The position numbers and the translations under genes are program-made. From the IMG/VR virus record IMGVR_UViG_3300033149_002667, positions 1-24,962 of that record: a DNA stretch of 24,962 bases; one strand, given 5' to 3'. Below the pieces are notes generated by a model. It did no database searches. It was not told where the DNA came from and was given only the letters and a program-made list of their open reading frames with translations. Shown here one piece after another: positions 3,080-23,423 of the stretch; position 1 is the stretch's first letter, and every line of letters starts with the position of its first letter. This stretch comes from a virus.

Positions 3080-3754
3080 TTATTGGGCGGGTATCGCATT
3101 TAGCACTTCCTTAAACCTCTCCAATGCCTTGCTATCCATTTCCAGCAGCTTCGCTAGTATGTCTTCCACTAATTCCTGTCGCTCTTTGTCGTTCCCTCGG
3201 TTGAACATCTTGGCTGCTAATGCTGCTGGCCGAACGTGGGTGTAGATTTGGGTGGTAGCCACAGAGGAATGTCCAAGCAGGGTTTGAACTTCTCGCAGGT
3301 TATAGCCTTCCTCCAGCAATTCGGTTGCGAAGCTGTGGCGTAGCACGTGAGGCGATATCTGCGTCGGATCAAGCCCTGCTCGCTTGGCATACTTCTTAAT
3401 CATTCGGCGCAGATGCGAGGTGAGCAACTGCGTGCCGAGGCGCGTACAGAAAAACCATTTGCTCTCTGCTGGTCGCTTCTCGTTCCAGGCTTGCAGCCAG
3501 CCTGCCAGTTCTGGGCCGATAGGGACGGTTCTAGACGCACCGCGCTTGGACTTGCGTATATCCAGTCGGTAATCGGCTATCTTCACGTCAGCGGGCCGCA
3601 AATTGACGATCTCACAGGCGCGTAGCCCTGCACGGTACATCGTTTCCAGTATTGCACGGTCTTTGATGCCATTGGTGTAGCGCAGGTTAGGCTGCTTGAG
3701 CAACAGTTCGGCTTCGTCGCGATTGATTACTTTGGGCAAGCGATTAGGCATCAT
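3080..3754 (-). CDS. Tyrosine recombinase (integrase), catalytic domain only
   Basis: 224 residues, XerC/D-like. All catalytic residues of the family can be placed: Arg45 in G-L-R-A-C-E, a Lys at 68 or 70 in the beta-hairpin, His136-x-x-Arg139 in H-V-L-R-H, His162 in L-L-G-H-S-S, and Tyr171 in I-Y-T-H-V. It should catalyse strand exchange between phage and host attachment sites or resolve dimers. XerC/D proteins are about 300 residues and begin with a helical core-binding (SAM-like) domain, which is absent here: the catalytic domain begins almost at once. The start overlaps the end of the upstream gene by 11 bases. The C-terminal 40 residues form an extra charged helix (about 185-224). Confidence 0.9.
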   Translation of the reverse strand: MMPNRLPKVINRDEAELLLKQPNLRYTNGIKDRAILETMYRAGLRACEIVNLRPADVKIADYRLDIRKSKRGASRTVPIGPELAGWLQAWNEKRPAESKWFFCTRLGTQLLTSHLRRMIKKYAKRAGLDPTQISPHVLRHSFATELLEEGYNLREVQTLLGHSSVATTQIYTHVRPAALAAKMFNRGNDKERQELVEDILAKLLEMDSKALERFKEVLNAIPAQ

Positions 3755-11309: not shown

Positions 11310-11338
11310 ATTATAACACAAAGCGCTACGATTGTCAA
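11310..11338 (-). promoter_or_regulatory. Strong leftward consensus promoter
   Basis: Read on the minus strand: TTGACA (11333-11338), 17-base spacer, TATAAT (11310-11315). Both hexamers are perfect. It drives the 10870 gene and probably much of the leftward operon. Confidence 0.85.
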
Positions 11339-11368
11339 GGCCCTTCTCAAAGTTTCTTCTCTATCTGT

Positions 11369-11395
11369 AGTATACCTCGCCCGTCTCGCTGTTAA
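11369..11395 (-). promoter_or_regulatory. Possible second leftward promoter
   Basis: Minus strand TTAACA (11390-11395), 15-base spacer, TATACT (11369-11374). The short spacing makes it weaker than the neighbour at 11310. Confidence 0.3.
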
Positions 11396-11417
11396 GCATA
11401 TCTGCTACAAAATAGTT

Positions 11418-11479
11418 TTGTACAACTCGTGTGCATAGCTTTGTACAAGTGTACAGTTAATGTGCAGAGTTTTGTACAA
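11418..11479. promoter_or_regulatory. Operator cluster: three TTGTACAA palindromes
   Basis: TTGTACAA occurs at 11418-11425, 11441-11448 and 11472-11479, with a partial TGTACA at 11450-11455. The surrounding bases are also similar (TTTTGTACAA or CTTTGTACAAG). The cluster lies between the leftward promoters and the rightward promoter. It is a likely binding array for a phage repressor, or for the ParB as a non-canonical partition site. Confidence 0.6.
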
Positions 11480-11534
11480 TTGACAACGGTAGGCGGCTTG
11501 ACCCGAAAACCCTCACGACCCGCCGATCACCAAA

Positions 11535-11555
11535 ACCCTAGGGTCTATTATATCA
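11535..11555 (-). promoter_or_regulatory. Leftward extended -10 with palindrome at the start site
   Basis: On the minus strand TGATATAAT (11547-11555) is an extended -10. The palindrome ACCCTAGGGT (11535-11544) lies where transcription would begin, a typical operator position. No gene starts nearby, so any transcript would have a leader of more than 250 bases before the 11277 start. Confidence 0.4.
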
Positions 11556-11587
11556 CGGCTCGCCTGCCGCCGCTTGGCTTGTAGCTT

Positions 11588-11599
11588 TTATCACGATAA
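11588..11599. repeat. Inverted repeat TTATC-AC-GATAA
   Basis: Two 5-base arms with a 2-base spacer in the divergent control region, followed by ACCGTTACCGT. It is a possible second operator type, distinct from TTGTACAA. The rest of 11556-11722 shows no gene. Confidence 0.35.
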
Positions 11600-11722
11600 C
11601 CGTTACCGTATAGCTGCCGCCGCTCGCTTATGAGCCAAAAACGAGACAAAAATTAGGTTTTGAGCGTTTTCGAGACAGACTCCTATTCGGAGATAATTGA
11701 GGTCTAAAAAGCAATTGGGGGG

Positions 11723-11751
11723 TTGACATTTTAGGCGTTACGGTTTATAAT
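11723..11751 (+). promoter_or_regulatory. Rightward consensus promoter for the packaging/head operon
   Basis: TTGACA (11723-11728), 17-base spacer, TATAAT (11746-11751). GTTACG occurs on both sides of the -10 (11737-11742 and 11756-11761), a 19-base repeat that could be an operator. The predicted start site (about 11757-11759) is only 5-7 bases before ATG 11764. Confidence 0.85.
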
Positions 11752-14716: not shown

Positions 14717-15565
14717 TTGAACATTTACGTTGTTGGCGATGTGATGTTAGATGTAGAGATGCAGGTGCAGCCTCGCGAGAATTATGAGGGAGCAAGTATT
14801 TGTGTAACGGGAACTAGATGCACTTACTACCCTGGCGGCGCTGCAAATGTGGCGGCTTTGTTGCAAAGATTAGGTTGTGATGTGTCTCTGTTTGGATTAG
14901 TGGGAGCAGATTGGGCAGCAGCGGAATTATACAATTTACTACGAGGCATAAGGATATACTGTCTGGCCTTGCTACCAACCACTACAGTGAAAACCCGAAT
15001 CTATGATGATGGGATGATGATACGAGTGGATTGCGAAGATCATAAGTCTGATAATTGGGCAGTGGAGCGATGTCTGCAAGAGATTGAACATATTCGTCCC
15101 GATTGTGTGGTCTTCTCTGATTATGGCAAGGGTATATTCGGCAGCCATGTGAGGGATACAGTCCAGCGTATTATCAGGCATGAGCCTCCAATCCCGACTG
15201 TGGTAGATCCAAAACCTTGTGAGCACAATGATATTTATGCTGACATCTGGAATGGGTGTACTGTGGCTGTTCCCAACAATAGAGAAATGGACGAGATGGC
15301 TCTTGATGTCCAAAACTTGATTGTTACGCATGGTGCGAATGGCGTTGTAGCTACAGGCAATTTTGACACAACTGCTATTCCTTGTCGCGAGGTTAGTAAT
15401 CCGCAAGTGGTCGGTGCTGGAGATGCTTTTACAGCAGGGATAGCTTCGTCGTTATCTCAGGACGATGATATAGCGAAGGCTGCACGGTTTGCGGTTGAGT
15501 TTGCTACAGATTATGTGTCGCAGCCACGAGTCGAGGCATATAATAAAAGATGGGGGCGAGAATAG
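14717..15565 (+). CDS. PfkB-family sugar kinase, HldE kinase-domain-like
   Basis: 282 residues from TTG 14717, chosen because TTGGAGG lies 5 bases upstream; the frame is open to 14678 but without such a site. The PfkB signatures are present: V-V-G-D-V-M-L-D (5-12), Y-P-G-G-A-A-N-V-A-A (38-47) and V-G-A-G-D-A-F-T-A-G (232-241) with the catalytic Asp236. The D-V-M-L-D and P-G-G-A-A-N-V-A forms, plus F-S-D-Y-G-K-G and V-D-P-K, are those of D-glycero-beta-D-manno-heptose-7-phosphate kinase (RfaE/HldE N-terminal domain), which makes a precursor of LPS heptose. It is slightly shorter than that domain (about 310-320). The last codons overlap the tmRNA-like element. Confidence 0.85.
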   Translation: MNIYVVGDVMLDVEMQVQPRENYEGASICVTGTRCTYYPGGAANVAALLQRLGCDVSLFGLVGADWAAAELYNLLRGIRIYCLALLPTTTVKTRIYDDGMMIRVDCEDHKSDNWAVERCLQEIEHIRPDCVVFSDYGKGIFGSHVRDTVQRIIRHEPPIPTVVDPKPCEHNDIYADIWNGCTVAVPNNREMDEMALDVQNLIVTHGANGVVATGNFDTTAIPCREVSNPQVVGAGDAFTAGIASSLSQDDDIAKAARFAVEFATDYVSQPRVEAYNKRWGRE

Positions 15566-15634
15566 TTTCGACCGCAGTTAAATCCCGAAAGGGCACTCTG
15601 TGGCACGCGGGGGCAGAACCCGCCGCCTCCACCA
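15552..15634 (+). ncRNA. Mini tmRNA-like RNA (tRNA-like domain only)
   Basis: GGGGGCG (15552-15558) pairs with CGCCTCC (15624-15630), giving a 7-bp acceptor. Pair 3-70 is G-U, then come A73 and encoded CCA (15632-15634). G3-U70 with A73 is the alanine identity of tRNA-Ala and tmRNA. After the acceptor comes AGAATAGTTTCGAC, the same length as the tmRNA D-loop segment and carrying its TTTCGAC signature. The T-stem GCGGG/CCCGC (15607-15611, 15619-15623) is the one seen in many tmRNAs, but the 7-base T-loop is GGCAGAA rather than TTCRANN. Between them, only a 6-bp stem (CCGCAG 15572-15577 with CTGTGG 15598-15603) and a CCC-GAAA-GGG hairpin (15584-15593) replace the roughly 270 bases holding the tag frame and pseudoknots. 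It overlaps the kinase gene by 14 bases. Confidence 0.65.
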
Positions 15635-16054: not shown

Positions 16055-17560
16055 ATGGCTACTAGCACAACATTCTCCGAAACTAGGCGATACACCGAGG
16101 ATGATGTAATCCTTGATCCTGTTGCTTGGTGCGCAGTAGCTAAACCTTGCATTGAAAGTAAGGTGCAAGGCTTAATCCCATTTGAGCCATATGACTTCCA
16201 GAAACAGATTATGCGAGCAGTTGCGGCAGGGAAAGCATATATCATTGATAAGTCTAGCCAGATTGGGGTTTCAACAGCAGTAGTAATAGGATATGCACAT
16301 CAGCTTCTTTACCGAGCCAAGGCGACAGGCATACCATTGCATTGTCATTTTATTGCTAACTCAGAAGAAGTTGCTGTGGAGCGGCTTTTGAAGATTGCTA
16401 AGGTTGCTCTTAGTACAGCGGAATTATCTGCAAGTCAGCAGAAGACTATTGATGGCATCAATCCGAAAACCAAAAACAACGAGATTCGCTATTACACTCC
16501 CCTTGCTCACAATTATATTCGCGCTCACCCCTCGCGAGAAACAGCAGGTCGTAGCTTCGACGGTAATGCGGCACTAATGGAGGAAGTTGCTTATATGCCG
16601 TATGCTGAAGGTGTTTGGCGATCAATGGCTCGCACCCTTGATGATATGGCGAATGCCCCTATATTTTTGGTGAGCACTTATAATGGCGATGGAGATTTTT
16701 TCTGTGAGTGTGTTGACAATCACAAGGAGTTAGGGCTTACTCATTTGCCCATTGACTGGCGGGCGCATCCTGATCGTTGGGGTGATGATAATGGTAAGAC
16801 TTGGAAGGAGCGATCTCAGAAGAAGTTCTTAGGGAGAATCGCAGAGTGGGAAGAGGAGCACGAACTGAAACGAATAAAGAGTGGAGAGCAGGCAATTGAC
16901 GTACGAATAGTAGAAGATTTTGCAACTGATATAGAGTTTTTAGGCCATAGCCCTATTGCTTCTCACCGTTATAGCAAAGGGGTAGATATTGCTGGTGCTG
17001 GTCGAGATAATACGGTGCATACCGTTATTGACCTTCACGTACGACCTCCTCAGGTTGTTTTTCAGCGTAGCTATGCTCGTCAGTCAACGACGGACAAGGT
17101 AGCAGCCATTGAAGCACTAGACAAGAGATGGCCTGGTTCATTATTTATTGATGGCACTAAAGATAGTGCAATACCTGCATTGGTAGATGCTCGACAAAAG
17201 ACAGCAGTAAACTTCACGGCTGGGCATCGAGCAACTGAGCGAGTAGATCGTGTGGAAGGACTGCAATGGCGCAATGTTCCTCGCGGTGAGATGTTGAGTT
17301 GGTTGATAGCTAATCTGGAAAGCGGTGCTCTTATTGCTCATCTGGAGGAGTTCCCTGAATTACGAGAGGCCTTAAGAACAGCTCGTACAGGTGTGGGCGA
17401 AAAGAAGCAGGGAAGAAATGTTGATTTCTTGGATTCGTTGATGTTGGCGAATTTGGCCTTGACAAAGCGAGTTCGAAGAGGATATGATAGGGGCGAAAAG
17501 TTGGTTGGGGGAGTACCCTCTTCTGATAAGCTGAAGAAGTTACTAGGAACTAGATGGTAA
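16055..17560 (+). CDS. Large terminase subunit (TerL)
   Basis: 501 residues. TerL is the ATP-driven motor and nuclease that packages and cuts phage DNA. Visible parts: adenine-binding F-E-P-Y-D-F-Q-K-Q-I (43-52), Walker A variant D-K-S-S-Q-I-G-V-S-T (65-74), Walker B A-A-L-M-E-E-V-A-Y (172-180) with catalytic Glu, coupling motif F-L-V-S-T-Y-N-G (204-211). The RNase H-like nuclease has acidic residues at Asp311 (G-V-D-I-A-G-A-G-R-D), Asp366 (F-I-D-G-T-K-D) and Asp457/460 (N-V-D-F-L-D-S). K-S-x-Q-I-G-x-S-T is the Mu gp28-like form. Length is normal. It lies directly upstream of the portal region, separated by a small basic gene and a tRNA-like element. Confidence 0.9.
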   Translation: MATSTTFSETRRYTEDDVILDPVAWCAVAKPCIESKVQGLIPFEPYDFQKQIMRAVAAGKAYIIDKSSQIGVSTAVVIGYAHQLLYRAKATGIPLHCHFIANSEEVAVERLLKIAKVALSTAELSASQQKTIDGINPKTKNNEIRYYTPLAHNYIRAHPSRETAGRSFDGNAALMEEVAYMPYAEGVWRSMARTLDDMANAPIFLVSTYNGDGDFFCECVDNHKELGLTHLPIDWRAHPDRWGDDNGKTWKERSQKKFLGRIAEWEEEHELKRIKSGEQAIDVRIVEDFATDIEFLGHSPIASHRYSKGVDIAGAGRDNTVHTVIDLHVRPPQVVFQRSYARQSTTDKVAAIEALDKRWPGSLFIDGTKDSAIPALVDARQKTAVNFTAGHRATERVDRVEGLQWRNVPRGEMLSWLIANLESGALIAHLEEFPELREALRTARTGVGEKKQGRNVDFLDSLMLANLALTKRVRRGYDRGEKLVGGVPSSDKLKKLLGTRW

Positions 17561-17848: not shown

Positions 17849-19258
17849 ATGGCTAGTCCGATGCACTATCGGTTAAGCCGTTGGTGGCACAACCATATCG
17901 CTGGTTGGGGGCATAGTGAAAAGGAGGAAACTCCCTTGCTACGGGGAGGTTTTTTGGTTCTCCCAAATGGGCGGGTGATTACTACTCCTGGTGATGTTCC
18001 TCCTATTGCGGCAACAAATGTAGCTGAAGCCGATACAAATGCCTCGTTGGGTGAGGTTGGCGTTACTGGCCTTGATGTTCGCCAAGGTCGTATTTATCAA
18101 GAGTATAGCGATCGTCTTCAAACACTTAATGATCGCATGATTGCCTACGAGGAAATGCGGCGTTCGGATTCGGCGCTGGCGGCGATGGAGGCAATTATTT
18201 CTTTGCCAATACGTCATGCAGATTGGCGAATTGAGCCTGGCGATGATAAGGAGCTTTCTGCTCGCATTGAAGATAATTTGTTCAACGATTTAAGTCATTC
18301 TTTTGATGATCTTCTTCGTGAATCTTTGTTGGCAGTGCTTTATGGATTTACTGTTCACGAAAAAGTCTTTGAGAAAAAAGATGATGGGTTTCTTGGCTGG
18401 CGCAAATTTGCTGAACGAAATCGAGCTACTGTGCAAGAATGGCAGTTTGATTCCACTGGTGGACTGGCAGGCATTGTTCAGCGTGGTGTTAATCCTAATG
18501 ATGGAATGCCTACTACAGTGAACATTCCTATCAAAAAGCTGATTATTTGGACGTGGCGTAAAGAGTCAGGGAACCCTGAGGGCATCGGAGCTTTTCGGCA
18601 AGCATATAAACACTGGATGTATAAGCAATACTTTGAGGAGTTTGCGGCCATTAGAATTGAGCGGCAAGCGTGTGGAATCTGGGTTGCCACTGGGCCACCT
18701 GAGGGATATGATAAGACTGAGCGCGACAATGTGATAACTATACTGAAGAATTTGCGTTCGGCGTCTGATGCCTCTTTAGTCAAACCTCCAGGTTGGGAAA
18801 TTGAGATGATAGAGCCAGGGCCTGCTGATGTGCCTTTTGAATCACACATTGAGCGACAGCATCAGTCCATGCTCCAGACTGTGCTTGGTCAATTTGTGGG
18901 CCTTGCTCAAGGTGGTGATACGGGTGCATGGGCGCTTAGTCGCGACAGTAGCACCTTCTTCCTTATGTCGCTTGAAGCGGTTGCAGACTGGTTCTGTTCT
19001 TTCTTCAATCGTTATGCTATTGATCAACTAGTACGCTATAATACTAACGAAAAGATGAAAAATCCTCGTCTGGTTCATGGCCCACTGGGAGTGCGCGATC
19101 CTTTTACATTGGCACGTGCTCTCAACAGGCTGTTTGATCCTAAGGTTCCTTTGCCAGAGGATGTAGAGAGATATGCACGGGAGGAGCTTGGTTTACCAGA
19201 ATTGAAAGAGAGGCAAACAGTAACAAATAAAGAACAAGTAGAGGAGGGTGTTGAGTAA
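17849..19258 (+). CDS. Portal protein, Mu gp29/DUF935-like
   Basis: 469 residues, ATG 17849 behind GATAAGGTAGGTACAGATA. The portal forms the ring through which DNA enters the head. Family features: N-terminal arm, then E-M-R-R-S-D-S-A-L-A-A-M (an exchange-and-measure segment common in this family), L-L-A-V-L-Y-G-F-T-V-H-E-K-V-F (typical of gp29 portals), a central crown region, and the helical segment A-L-S-R-D-S-S-T-F-F-L. Order terminase-portal-protease matches phage Mu. The stop overlaps the next ATG (TAATG). Confidence 0.85.
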   Translation: MASPMHYRLSRWWHNHIAGWGHSEKEETPLLRGGFLVLPNGRVITTPGDVPPIAATNVAEADTNASLGEVGVTGLDVRQGRIYQEYSDRLQTLNDRMIAYEEMRRSDSALAAMEAIISLPIRHADWRIEPGDDKELSARIEDNLFNDLSHSFDDLLRESLLAVLYGFTVHEKVFEKKDDGFLGWRKFAERNRATVQEWQFDSTGGLAGIVQRGVNPNDGMPTTVNIPIKKLIIWTWRKESGNPEGIGAFRQAYKHWMYKQYFEEFAAIRIERQACGIWVATGPPEGYDKTERDNVITILKNLRSASDASLVKPPGWEIEMIEPGPADVPFESHIERQHQSMLQTVLGQFVGLAQGGDTGAWALSRDSSTFFLMSLEAVADWFCSFFNRYAIDQLVRYNTNEKMKNPRLVHGPLGVRDPFTLARALNRLFDPKVPLPEDVERYAREELGLPELKERQTVTNKEQVEEGVE

Positions 19259-19377
19259 TGACTTTCTATATTTCAGAACGATGGTTGGGATTTATCGCGG
19301 GTTGGATTGTGAGTTGGCTAGTGTTATATTTGATTTATAGATTAGGTAAATCCAGAGACGAAAACGACAAATCTTAG
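19258..19377 (+). CDS. 39-residue membrane peptide
   Basis: ATG 19258 overlaps the portal stop. The product MTFYISERWLGFIAGWIVSW, then LVLYLIYRLGKSRDENDKS, has one transmembrane helix and a charged tail. It could be a small holin-like or inner-membrane protein. It is coupled to portal translation. Confidence 0.5.
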   Translation: MTFYISERWLGFIAGWIVSWLVLYLIYRLGKSRDENDKS

Positions 19378-19385
19378 AATAGGCC

Positions 19386-19414
19386 TTGACAAAGTCTAGG
19401 AAAAAGTTTATAAT
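19386..19414 (+). promoter_or_regulatory. Consensus promoter for the small RNA
   Basis: TTGACA (19386-19391), 17-base spacer, TATAAT (19409-19414): a perfect sigma70-type promoter inside the head operon. Start expected near 19421. Confidence 0.85.
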
Positions 19415-19420
19415 AGTATA

Positions 19421-19560
19421 GACAATCAGGAAAGCGCCTTGACTGCGCTGATCACGCAGTGACAAATCAGTACCCGACTGATGGCGAAATGGTGAGCGCT
19501 CACCTACATTTTATTCGGGAGCAATCCTAACGGGAAGGTTGCAAGTAGCCTTCCCGTTTT
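19421..19560 (+). ncRNA. Branched small RNA with own promoter and terminator
   Basis: About 140 nt. CGCC 19435-19438 pairs with GGCG 19483-19486, closing a junction with two hairpins: ACTGCG/CGCAGT (19442-19447, 19455-19460; loop CTGATCA) and ATCAGT/ACTGAT (19466-19471, 19477-19482; loop ACCCG). Then comes the palindrome GGTGAGCGCTCACC (19491-19504) and a terminator. The loop base run CTGAT (19448-19452) is complementary to ATCAG at 19424-19428, so a pseudoknot is possible. There is no convincing open frame. It could act on mRNA, ribosomes or a protein, or be read through into the protease gene as a leader. It matches no known family that I recognise. Confidence 0.7.
19529..19560 (+). terminator. 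Intrinsic terminator
   Basis: AACGGGAAGG (19529-19538) pairs with CCTTCCCGTT (19549-19558) across a 10-base loop, followed by a T-run. It ends the small RNA and would also reduce read-through from the portal into the protease gene starting at 19577. Confidence 0.85.
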
Positions 19561-19576
19561 ACTTTGGGGAAAGAAT

Positions 19577-21400
19577 ATGCCAAGACCAAATTTTCACAGT
19601 TGTGAATTGCTGCCAGATAGTACGCCGAAGGATCGTGTGCGAACTAAACACGAAACTATTGACGGCAAACCCGTCAGTGTTATCTATTACATCAAGGACA
19701 ATAAAGCTAAACGCAAGTCTGTTCTCTTTCCTAAAAGTTCGTGGGATGCTGATGCTGCTCGTGCGCACTGTAGTGGCACCTTTGTTCCAGCGGGTAAGGC
19801 AGCGGCGACTCTAGTTTTTATTGATGAAGGTCCCGCACAAGCTATCACACTTGCTGTTGCACCTTCTGCAGAAGAGACTGAAACCCAAGAACTTGTATGG
19901 CATCCTGTGATCTATGTGGGGCGTTGGGAGCACTCATCGTATGGAGAATTTGAGGTTAAACTTTCTGATTTGGAGGAAATGGTCTCCAATTTTGAGGCAG
20001 GTGTTCCTTTGCAGGCTGGTGTGCCGATTGATGAAAATGGGGTTCATGATGTGCGAGGCGAAGGTGCGTTTGGTTGGATTGAAAAACTGGAAATACGCGA
20101 AGACGCTCTTTGGGCTGGAATTAAGTGGACACAAGATGGCATTGCAGCAATAGAGGATGGCCGCTATAAGTATCTTTCGGCGTCCTTCTATATCGGCGAA
20201 AATCCTTACGCCGAGACTAGCACATTGCAAGCGGGTGCTCTTTGTACTCGGCCATTCTTTAGTCAACAGCCAGAACTTCGAGTTGCAGCTTCTGAGTATA
20301 GTTATGCTTTAGGGAATGAGGCTATGTCTGCTGCTGATGATTCTCGCGAGAAGGCACGGGCAGCACAGCGGCAGCGAGCGAAGCGTTGGGGAATTCAGAT
20401 ACTAAGCGACACAAATCTGACGCCGCCTGCAGCTTATCGAGATGAATGTCCTAACCCCAGTGACTATGGCGATCCAGTAAACTATAAATATCCACTAAAG
20501 CCTGAAAGTCGGTTGCGCAACGCACCAGCGAGAATGGCACAAAATTATGGTGTGTATAATGTAAAGTCACGCCGCATTATCTGGAATCGAATTATTAGGC
20601 GTCAGAAAGCATCTGGCATAAAACATAAGTGGGGCAGCCCGCTAGCCTTGGATCGCTTATTGGCTCCCGACTTAGCGGCTTGGGCTAAGCGTGGACGAAA
20701 TGTTGCTGCTACGCGAACAGGAGGTTCAGTTATGAATGCCGAAGAAGCACGAGCAAAATATGTTGAGTTGAAGGGTGAAGTTACTGATGAGGAGTGGGAA
20801 AAGATAACAGAGGGCATTGAGACGGAGGAGGATTGGGAAATTCTTGTTGCCAGCTTTGTTGAAGAGGAGGGTGAAGGTAGCGAGGAAGAGGGTGGAGAGG
20901 AAGGGCCTCTGGAAGAGCAGCTTGCCGAAGCTCAGGCAAAAGTGAAAGAATTAGAGCAGTTAGTTGCTGAAGAGCAGAAAGCTAAAGACGAGGCGCTTGC
21001 AGCCACCCAGAAACTGACTGAGCGTGTGGATGTTTTGGAAAAGGAGAATAAGGAGGCTAAGTTGCGCGAAGAGATTAGCGCGGTTGATCTCGGTGGCAAC
21101 AGGCGTTATTCTCCCGCTGCTGTTGATTTGCTAGTTGCTGCTCAGCTTAATCCAGGTGAGGAGTCCATCAAAGCCATTCAGGCTCATATGGAGGAGCATG
21201 GCGGCAGTATGGACACAGTGATAATGGGTGAAGTAGGAGCAGTTAGTGCTGTCACAGCAACTGGTAAGCAGAGTGATGAGCAGTGGTGGCAGCAGAAGAA
21301 GCAAAGCATTACGCCCGAGACTGCAGCCAGAGTGGAAGCGGCTGTCGCTAGCGAAAAGAGCAAGACCTTCCGCGCAGCTTATGAGGAAACCCTTCTGTAG
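19577..21400 (+). CDS. Head maturation protease-scaffold, Mu I-like, with DUF6582-like insert
   Basis: 607 residues, ATG 19577 behind GGGGAAAGAAT. In Mu, gpI cuts the scaffold during head assembly. Residues 100-235 match the Mu-I protease pattern: V-G-R-W, then G-V-H-D-V-R-G-E-G-A-F-G-W-I, A-L-W-A-G-I-K-W-T-Q-D-G, and D-G-R-Y-K-Y-L-S-A-S-F-Y. Residues 280-350 (Y-R-D-E-C-P-N-P-S-D-Y-G-D-P-V-N-Y-K-Y-P-L, then R-N-A-P-A-R-M-A-Q-N, W-N-R-I-I) resemble the DUF6582 module seen in phage proteases. Residues 385-607 are acidic and coiled coil, as in scaffolds. N-terminal segment R-K-S-V-L-F-P-K-S-S-W-D-A-D-A-A-R resembles other prohead proteases. Confidence 0.8.
   Translation: MPRPNFHSCELLPDSTPKDRVRTKHETIDGKPVSVIYYIKDNKAKRKSVLFPKSSWDADAARAHCSGTFVPAGKAAATLVFIDEGPAQAITLAVAPSAEETETQELVWHPVIYVGRWEHSSYGEFEVKLSDLEEMVSNFEAGVPLQAGVPIDENGVHDVRGEGAFGWIEKLEIREDALWAGIKWTQDGIAAIEDGRYKYLSASFYIGENPYAETSTLQAGALCTRPFFSQQPELRVAASEYSYALGNEAMSAADDSREKARAAQRQRAKRWGIQILSDTNLTPPAAYRDECPNPSDYGDPVNYKYPLKPESRLRNAPARMAQNYGVYNVKSRRIIWNRIIRRQKASGIKHKWGSPLALDRLLAPDLAAWAKRGRNVAATRTGGSVMNAEEARAKYVELKGEVTDEEWEKITEGIETEEDWEILVASFVEEEGEGSEEEGGEEGPLEEQLAEAQAKVKELEQLVAEEQKAKDEALAATQKLTERVDVLEKENKEAKLREEISAVDLGGNRRYSPAAVDLLVAAQLNPGEESIKAIQAHMEEHGGSMDTVIMGEVGAVSAVTATGKQSDEQWWQQKKQSITPETAARVEAAVASEKSKTFRAAYEETLL
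20732..21400 (+). CDS. Nested scaffold protein from internal start
   Basis: In-frame ATG at codon 386 of the protease gene, behind ACAGGAGGTTCAGTT. It would make a separate 222-residue scaffold: acidic linker (FVEEEGEGSEEEGGEEGPLE) and a long coiled coil. Mu gpZ inside gpI and lambda Nu3 inside C are precedents. The strong ribosome binding site within coding sequence and its position at the start of the scaffold domain are the evidence. Confidence 0.7.
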   Translation: MNAEEARAKYVELKGEVTDEEWEKITEGIETEEDWEILVASFVEEEGEGSEEEGGEEGPLEEQLAEAQAKVKELEQLVAEEQKAKDEALAATQKLTERVDVLEKENKEAKLREEISAVDLGGNRRYSPAAVDLLVAAQLNPGEESIKAIQAHMEEHGGSMDTVIMGEVGAVSAVTATGKQSDEQWWQQKKQSITPETAARVEAAVASEKSKTFRAAYEETLL

Positions 21401-22405: not shown

Positions 22406-22433
22406 CCAGTAACTCTTAATGGAGGTGGCTAGT

Positions 22434-23423
22434 ATGCCTGGCACCCCAGGTGCATTGACAACCGATGATGTTCCACTGAGTCTATTGTACACAGAGTTTA
22501 TAGACTCTATAAGGAAGCACAATGAGCAGGATAGAAACTTTAAATCGCTGTTTTGTCAACCGCCTACTAAAGATCGTACGGTTAGGATAGAACGGCGGAG
22601 TATGCGTTTCTATGAGTCAGGTGAGGATACTACGCAACCTGACTACCAGCATATAGACTATGATGATATTGATTTGGATGAGCCTCGTCGGATGATTGCT
22701 GCGGTTGGCATTACCCAGAAAGCTGTTGAAAAGGGTATTAGTTCTCGCCAAGTGCGAAATCATCACGATGAGGCATTGCGTGCTGACTTTCGGCTAGTAC
22801 AGCACGCAGTGTTGAAGCCTTGTCTGACAACTGGTGGCTGGTATGATGGTACGATGGCTACGGCACCACCGCCATTCAAGAAGAACACATTTACGACAGC
22901 ACACAGCCACTACTTAGCTGCAAATGTAGGGGGCGTGCCGACGCTAAATGAGTTTACTAATGCTAAACAGCATATTCTTGAGCATGGCTATAGTGGCCCA
23001 TTTTATGCCTTTGTGAACACTGCACAGGCGGAGCAGATAGAAAATGCTGCTGAGTGGGCAAATCAGCCTGGCCCTCTGCCGACTCCGACAATGACTCAGC
23101 TAGCGGAGATGGGAATGACACCGTTTATCCGCGCAGCGGGGATAACAGTCTATGCTGAGGACTGGATTGATGAGAACTATATGCTCGTTGTCTCCTTGGA
23201 AGAGAAGCCTTGCTCTTGGCGTATTCCCGAAGGCAAGGGTGTTGGCGTTGAGGGTCTTATGGTTCATACTGCCATCAAGGGCAGCGAGGCTATGTTGTCC
23301 AAGTATAACTTCATTGAGGAGTATGTACGCTGGATAAGTTGTAATGTACTGCATCGTGGTGCTGGCGTTGCCTATTATCTTGATGGCGCTACTTGGACGG
23401 ATACTACTGGCTGGTACATATAA
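22434..23423 (+). CDS. Major capsid protein
   Basis: 329 residues from ATG 22434, behind AATGGAGGTGGCTAGT. Size, position after the scaffold and decoration genes, and a layout with an N-terminal arm, central beta-hinge (Y-D-D-I-D-L-D-E-P-R-R) and long mixed alpha/beta part fit an HK97-fold capsid protein. Segments such as F-Y-A-F-V-N-T-A-Q-A-E-Q-I and I-T-V-Y-A-E-D-W-I-D-E-N-Y-M-L-V-V look like the A-domain of Mu gpT-like or P22-type capsids. Assigned from context and fold style. Confidence 0.75.
   Translation: MPGTPGALTTDDVPLSLLYTEFIDSIRKHNEQDRNFKSLFCQPPTKDRTVRIERRSMRFYESGEDTTQPDYQHIDYDDIDLDEPRRMIAAVGITQKAVEKGISSRQVRNHHDEALRADFRLVQHAVLKPCLTTGGWYDGTMATAPPPFKKNTFTTAHSHYLAANVGGVPTLNEFTNAKQHILEHGYSGPFYAFVNTAQAEQIENAAEWANQPGPLPTPTMTQLAEMGMTPFIRAAGITVYAEDWIDENYMLVVSLEEKPCSWRIPEGKGVGVEGLMVHTAIKGSEAMLSKYNFIEEYVRWISCNVLHRGAGVAYYLDGATWTDTTGWYI

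Follow-up and report, generated by a model that had tools for sequence, protein, structure and literature searches.

Which role does a short structured RNA play when it stands, equipped with a promoter and a terminator, between the portal gene and the head maturation protease gene of an uncultured phage? The question is raised by the IMG/VR virus record IMGVR_UViG_3300033149_002667, of which the whole stretch of 24,962 bases analysed here is called the window. A first-pass annotation of the DNA had described the locus as a self-contained small RNA gene inside the structural operon and had suggested its expression outside the late program, for example in the lysogen. The surrounding features are the following:

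3080-3754, minus strand: tyrosine integrase
11310-11338, minus strand, and 11723-11751, plus strand: divergent perfect sigma70 promoters
from about 11.7 kb, rightward: genes of which the first three encode a metallophosphoesterase/exonuclease-like protein, a PfkB-type kinase and a cupin protein
16055-17560, rightward: large terminase, standard type (phrog_2)
17695: tRNA-Met, between large terminase and portal
17849-19258, rightward: portal
19258-19377, plus strand: short open reading frame overlapping the portal stop
19386-19414, plus strand: sigma70-type promoter TTGACA-17-TATAAT, 12 of 12 consensus matches
19421-19562, plus strand: structured RNA of about 140 nt, recognized by fold and homologs
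19577-21400, plus strand: protease fusion gene (head maturation protease), directly 3′ of the RNA and a possible cis target
after the protease fusion and before the major capsid protein: cement-like proteins
22419-23423, rightward: major capsid protein

As a tyrosine integrase is encoded, a temperate life with a lysogenic state is possible. Portal matches in bacterial genomes reach 23-24% identity only, so that no host has been assigned. The protease fusion has been recognized by matches to phrog_328 (E 2.8e-13) and Mu-like_Pro (E 1e-10). Its 5′ part (19577 to about 19800) varies among relatives, at the same place in L002, L003, L008 and L009, with an N-terminal part that reads like a ChaB-type domain in L002 and is short in L003 and L008; such variation directly after the RNA points to mosaic exchange at the terminator. 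At the other border of the gap, the short reading frame of about 39 amino acids resembles, by eye, a single-pass membrane protein, and similar short reading frames are present in the relatives, including L017, which is without the RNA.

Fold, covariation and distribution of the RNA

The RNA, whose predicted 5′ end lies 7 nt past the −10 box and whose 3′ end is placed at the T-run, folds with −48.4 kcal/mol (z = −3.65), a stability that none of 200 shuffles attained, and the folds of the four homologous RNAs have z values of −2.7 to −3.7. In the branched fold, P1 closes P2 and P3 and is followed by P4, with these elements on the plus strand:

19434-19486: P1, 19435-19438 paired with 19483-19486, one two-sided change (C-G to U-A)
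19442-19460: P2 hairpin, 19442-19447 paired with 19455-19460, two-sided changes in four of six pairs, pairing in 100% of cells
19466-19482: P3 hairpin, 19466-19470 paired with 19478-19482, one pair changed on both sides
19473-19519: candidate pseudoknot, P3 loop CCCGA (19473-19477) with UCGGG (19515-19519)
19491-19504: P4, palindromic hairpin GGTGAGCGCTCACC, all 14 bases invariant in the five sequences
19529-19558: hairpin of the intrinsic terminator, 13 pairs, with the T-run to 19560

When the structure comprising P1, P2, P3, pseudoknot, P4 and terminator was tested on the five-sequence alignment A3, 97.8% of the cells paired, compared with 34-41% when the structure was slid by 1-3 columns. 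Both partners have changed in six pairs (one in P1, four in P2, one in P3), whereas shuffles gave 2.8 on average and slid structures 0-1, numbers that are drawn from few sequences, five of one clade, and from a shuffle control that ignores relatedness. Equally, RNAalifold independently predicts P1 to P4 and the terminator, placing the 3′ pseudoknot strand in a small local hairpin instead. The first-pass annotation had made the RNA gene depend on stems kept by paired changes in related phages, and P1, P2 and P3 have been kept in this way; the expected branched structure is thereby supported. The junction stems had been called perfect, which holds for P1 in L002, L008 and L009 with their full 5 bp and does not hold for the window, where P1 comprises 4 bp only (GCGCC versus GGCG and a gap); furthermore, the outer P3 pair is lost in two sequences. 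The pseudoknot, equally anticipated, is possible, as its four core pairs (CCCG/CGGG) are present and invariant in all five sequences with the fifth varying on one side; the (almost) complete invariance of this core, of P4 and of most terminator pairs means that covariation neither supports nor refutes these parts.

The element is present in four further IMG/VR contigs (L002/L011, L003/L010, L008/L013 and L009/L012), found by portal and protease searches and by three RNA patterns in IMG/VR, each of which gave those four contigs or a subset, and is placed between portal and protease in all five loci. Between homologs the RNA is 79-94% identical, compared with 55-73% at portal fourfold-degenerate sites. 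Only these five matched covariance model R1 among the loci searched; more distant portal relatives gave no match to the model, with hairpin fragments solely inside the five known loci, and relatives with 55-63% identical portals are without the RNA. The proposed comparison with known RNA families recovered no Rfam 15 family in the RNA at the gathering threshold, the best hit of a relaxed scan being RefA5 with 17.3 bits versus a cut-off of 91. DNA similarity searches in phages and plasmids gave no match to the element, and the GTDB representative genomes gave none to one strict exact pattern, which diverged copies may escape. A coding function is not indicated, as no frame is common to the five homologs and the short frames differ; MVSAHL, which starts from P4 and is the only shared start, was rejected as coding because frames and stops differ downstream. 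Judged by its sequence, the RNA constitutes a new family, of a known kind, that is confined to one clade of uncultured phages, and the earlier designation as an RNA gene is supported by a conserved non-coding unit that extends from promoter to terminator. For a lineage of phages that has no cultured relatives, this adds a previously undescribed RNA family backed by covariation.

Promoter, terminator and the possible readings

The perfect promoter noticed in the first-pass annotation is present with all 12 matches. A first-order Markov model built on the window predicts 0.017 such promoters per window, while three are observed, the other two being the divergent pair at 11338 (minus strand) and 11723 (plus strand), of which the latter stands just before the rightward genes and shares its class with the promoter at 19386-19414. 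The region of the divergent promoters (11310-11751) is probably an early switch region; between them, at 11419-11480, tandem 31-nt repeats with TTGTACAA-like palindromes have been observed. Among the five homologous sequences, the −35 box does not vary, the −10 box is 80% identical and the spacing stays at 17 nt. The spacer is close to random (38% mean pairwise identity; 47% in the 40 bases upstream), and thus gives no sign of a Q-type DNA binding element between the hexamers. A separate TTGACA-18-TATGAT sequence (17459-17488, plus strand) is found within the terminase 3′ end. In four phages the codons of both hexamers are unchanged, in contrast to the variable codons around them. The site may drive transcription of the tRNA-portal region; it has been rejected as proof of a general promoter set because it sits in terminase codons.

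In the strong intrinsic terminator that had been postulated, the word strong suits the hairpin and not the T-run, since only TTTT precedes an interruption in five of five sequences, which suggests a leaky terminator. The terminator stem is 95-100% identical between homologs (19-20 of 20 bases in pairwise comparisons), and this conservation, though P2 covaries freely and portal fourfold sites are at 55-73%, argues that more than foldability is preserved. The order portal, promoter, RNA, terminator and protease start is common to all five loci. The protease start follows the T-run after 17 nt in the window and 17-25 nt in the five loci (with an uncertain start codon in L009), and a GGGG Shine-Dalgarno-like run is found at the protease start throughout. 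As there is no room for another promoter after the terminator, transcription into the protease gene from upstream must cross RNA and terminator; the earlier term self-contained captures the completeness of the unit and overlooks this close protease start.

Relatives without the RNA are informative in this respect. The portal-protease gap of L005 contains TTGACA-17-TACGAT and that of L019 TTGACA-18-TACAAC, both with 10 of 12 matches and without a match to the RNA model, where chance would give roughly 0.02-0.03 such sites per gap and strand as estimated from the Markov model. With a promoter before the protease and no RNA, both relatives indicate that the capsid genes can be served by the promoter alone, and the promoter at 19386 may simply serve the capsid module. 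The suggested expression in the lysogen or otherwise outside the late program finds no support in these two relatives or in the promoter class shared with 11723.

Because of its position, the promoters in the two RNA-less relatives, the short T-run and the kept terminator sequence, the RNA is tentatively, with confidence somewhat below even, read as the 5′ leader of the protease-capsid module with the terminator as a gate, and this terminator-gated leader is slightly favoured over a purely trans-acting small RNA. Host sigma70 RNA polymerase would start at the consensus promoter, whereupon the nascent RNA would fold into P1-P2-P3-P4, probably with the P3-loop pseudoknot. Most polymerases would halt at the intrinsic terminator and release the RNA of about 140 nt, and those that read through would express the protease, cement and major capsid genes. 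We infer such transcription and read-through, the latter owing either to the short T-run or to an antitermination state set by a phage factor or the RNA itself. A classical riboswitch or attenuator is unsupported, as folds of partial transcripts ending before the terminator 3′ arm contain no nested antiterminator pairing common to the five homologs and the upstream partners of the terminator 5′ arm differ in each; an antitermination protein was not recognised among the proteins scanned. Against the gate stands the finding that not every relative has a gap promoter, with none in L006 and L017 and only 8 of 12 matches in L020. An extended version is considered unlikely, in which a new class of leader RNA, characterized by the P1-P2-P3 junction, a pseudoknot and a self-complementary hairpin, would control how polymerase enters the capsid genes, would in its terminated form double as a free small RNA and would thereby set both lysogen or early and late states.

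Alternatively, the RNA of about 140 nt might itself be the product of a free-standing gene and act in trans, its targets being RNAs or proteins of host or phage, perhaps after dimerisation via the palindromic P4; its place before the protease would then be incidental. This is a serious, if rather doubtful, possibility, suggested by the complete promoter-to-terminator unit, by a fold that is independent of the terminator and by the self-complementarity of P4 (two-strand duplex −29.3 kcal/mol versus hairpin −4.9). Furthermore, this genome region repeatedly harbours RNA genes, with tRNA-Met in the window, tRNA-Met/Pro in relatives, and a short gene plus a tRNA-like sequence with a CAT anticodon (by eye) in the gaps of L017 and L018, both without the RNA. 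However, the terminator of such a gene, if not suppressed, would exert polarity on the capsid genes, the two RNA-less relatives have a promoter in the gap nonetheless, and the target prediction that had been proposed found no more complementarity to phage translation starts than in shuffled controls. The gap can be seen as a promoter site of the capsid module and possibly as a settling place of RNA genes, and as it may host both, the cis and trans readings stay close.

By analogy to HK022 put, the RNA could bind its own polymerase and carry it past this and later terminators as an RNA-only antiterminator, a special case of cis action. With a structured promoter-proximal RNA immediately 5′ of a terminator, as HK022 putL is likewise located just 3′ of its promoter (PMC9378689), and with no phage antitermination protein recognised in the scan, such a function is conceivable; it is nevertheless judged quite unlikely, as the architecture differs and as efficient read-through would make the released RNA rare, yet the terminator stem is strongly kept. 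A DNA-level element, be it an operator at P4, a perfect 14-bp palindrome invariant in five of five sequences, or a packaging or recombination site with folding as a by-product, is highly improbable given the paired changes in P1, P2 and P3, the kept promoter and terminator, and a palindrome that occurs once per contig, in the window even when three mismatches are permitted, without a second operator-like copy.

A tag-less tmRNA-like RNA in the same phages

Apart from the gap RNA, an 83-nt tmRNA-like RNA has been observed at 15552-15634 on the plus strand, which consists of the tRNA-like domain of tmRNA and is devoid of the tag-coding part. The 5′ and 3′ parts of that domain are joined in 82-83 nt, and the Rfam tmRNA model aligns over its full length with 83 nt, with scores below the family cut-off for the window copy and above it for the copies in L002 (1178-1260) and L003 (1619-1701). 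A spacing-restricted pattern identified similar 82-nt elements in six more viral contigs (L023-L028), four of them listed at 63-194 kb and some belonging to large phages. ARAGORN made no tmRNA call on the mini-elements, whereas in three reference phages it recognised normal permuted tmRNAs. In an imperfect alignment of eight sequences, the acceptor stem is paired in every one and the other two stems in about 70% of cells. No matching description of a tag-less mini-tmRNA was found in the literature; possibly it is a ribosome-rescue or trans-translation decoy. In Tunturiibacter phage Tunturi_4 (L038), a gene annotated as an RF-1-domain release factor lies next to, with a slight overlap, an ARAGORN-called permuted tmRNA, which places two ribosome-rescue functions side by side.

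Comparison with known systems

The packaging RNA of phi29 is structured, has a self-complementary loop and is encoded beside the portal gene. The phage RNA described here shares with it the structure, the self-complementary loop and the adjoining portal gene; a role in the packaging motor is unlikely because relatives with 55-63% identical portals lack the RNA and the terminase is of the standard type (phrog_2). Like the small regulatory RNAs of phages and prophages, the RNA is non-coding, about 140 nt long and provided with its own sigma70-type promoter and an intrinsic terminator. Unlike these, it has no antisense target found in the phage, is highly structured and lies 17-25 nt before a start codon.

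The HK022 putRNA, with putL just downstream of its promoter, measures about 70 nt and forms two stem-loops (PMC9378689). Both are structured phage RNAs near a promoter and 5′ of a terminator; the RNA of the present phages, however, has about 140 nt with a P1 junction closing P2 and P3, a P4 and a possible pseudoknot, and is found at the capsid module and not behind early promoters. The lambda pR′-tR′ region combines a constitutive sigma70 promoter, a short leader and an intrinsic terminator, which are followed by the structural genes (PMC6606751). The same succession of elements before structural genes is found here, in contrast with a leader fold that is conserved and covarying and a site between portal and protease instead of before the late operon. 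Unlike in the lambda Q leader, the spacer that would hold the Q binding element site is only 38% identical, and a phage-specific site in each homolog might still exist. With the defining features tested, the Q site and the putRNA architecture, not shared, lambda pR′-tR′ and HK022 put are analogies; the conserved fold and terminator directly before the capsid module would open RNA-based regulation of structural genes beyond the lambdoid model to experimental test.
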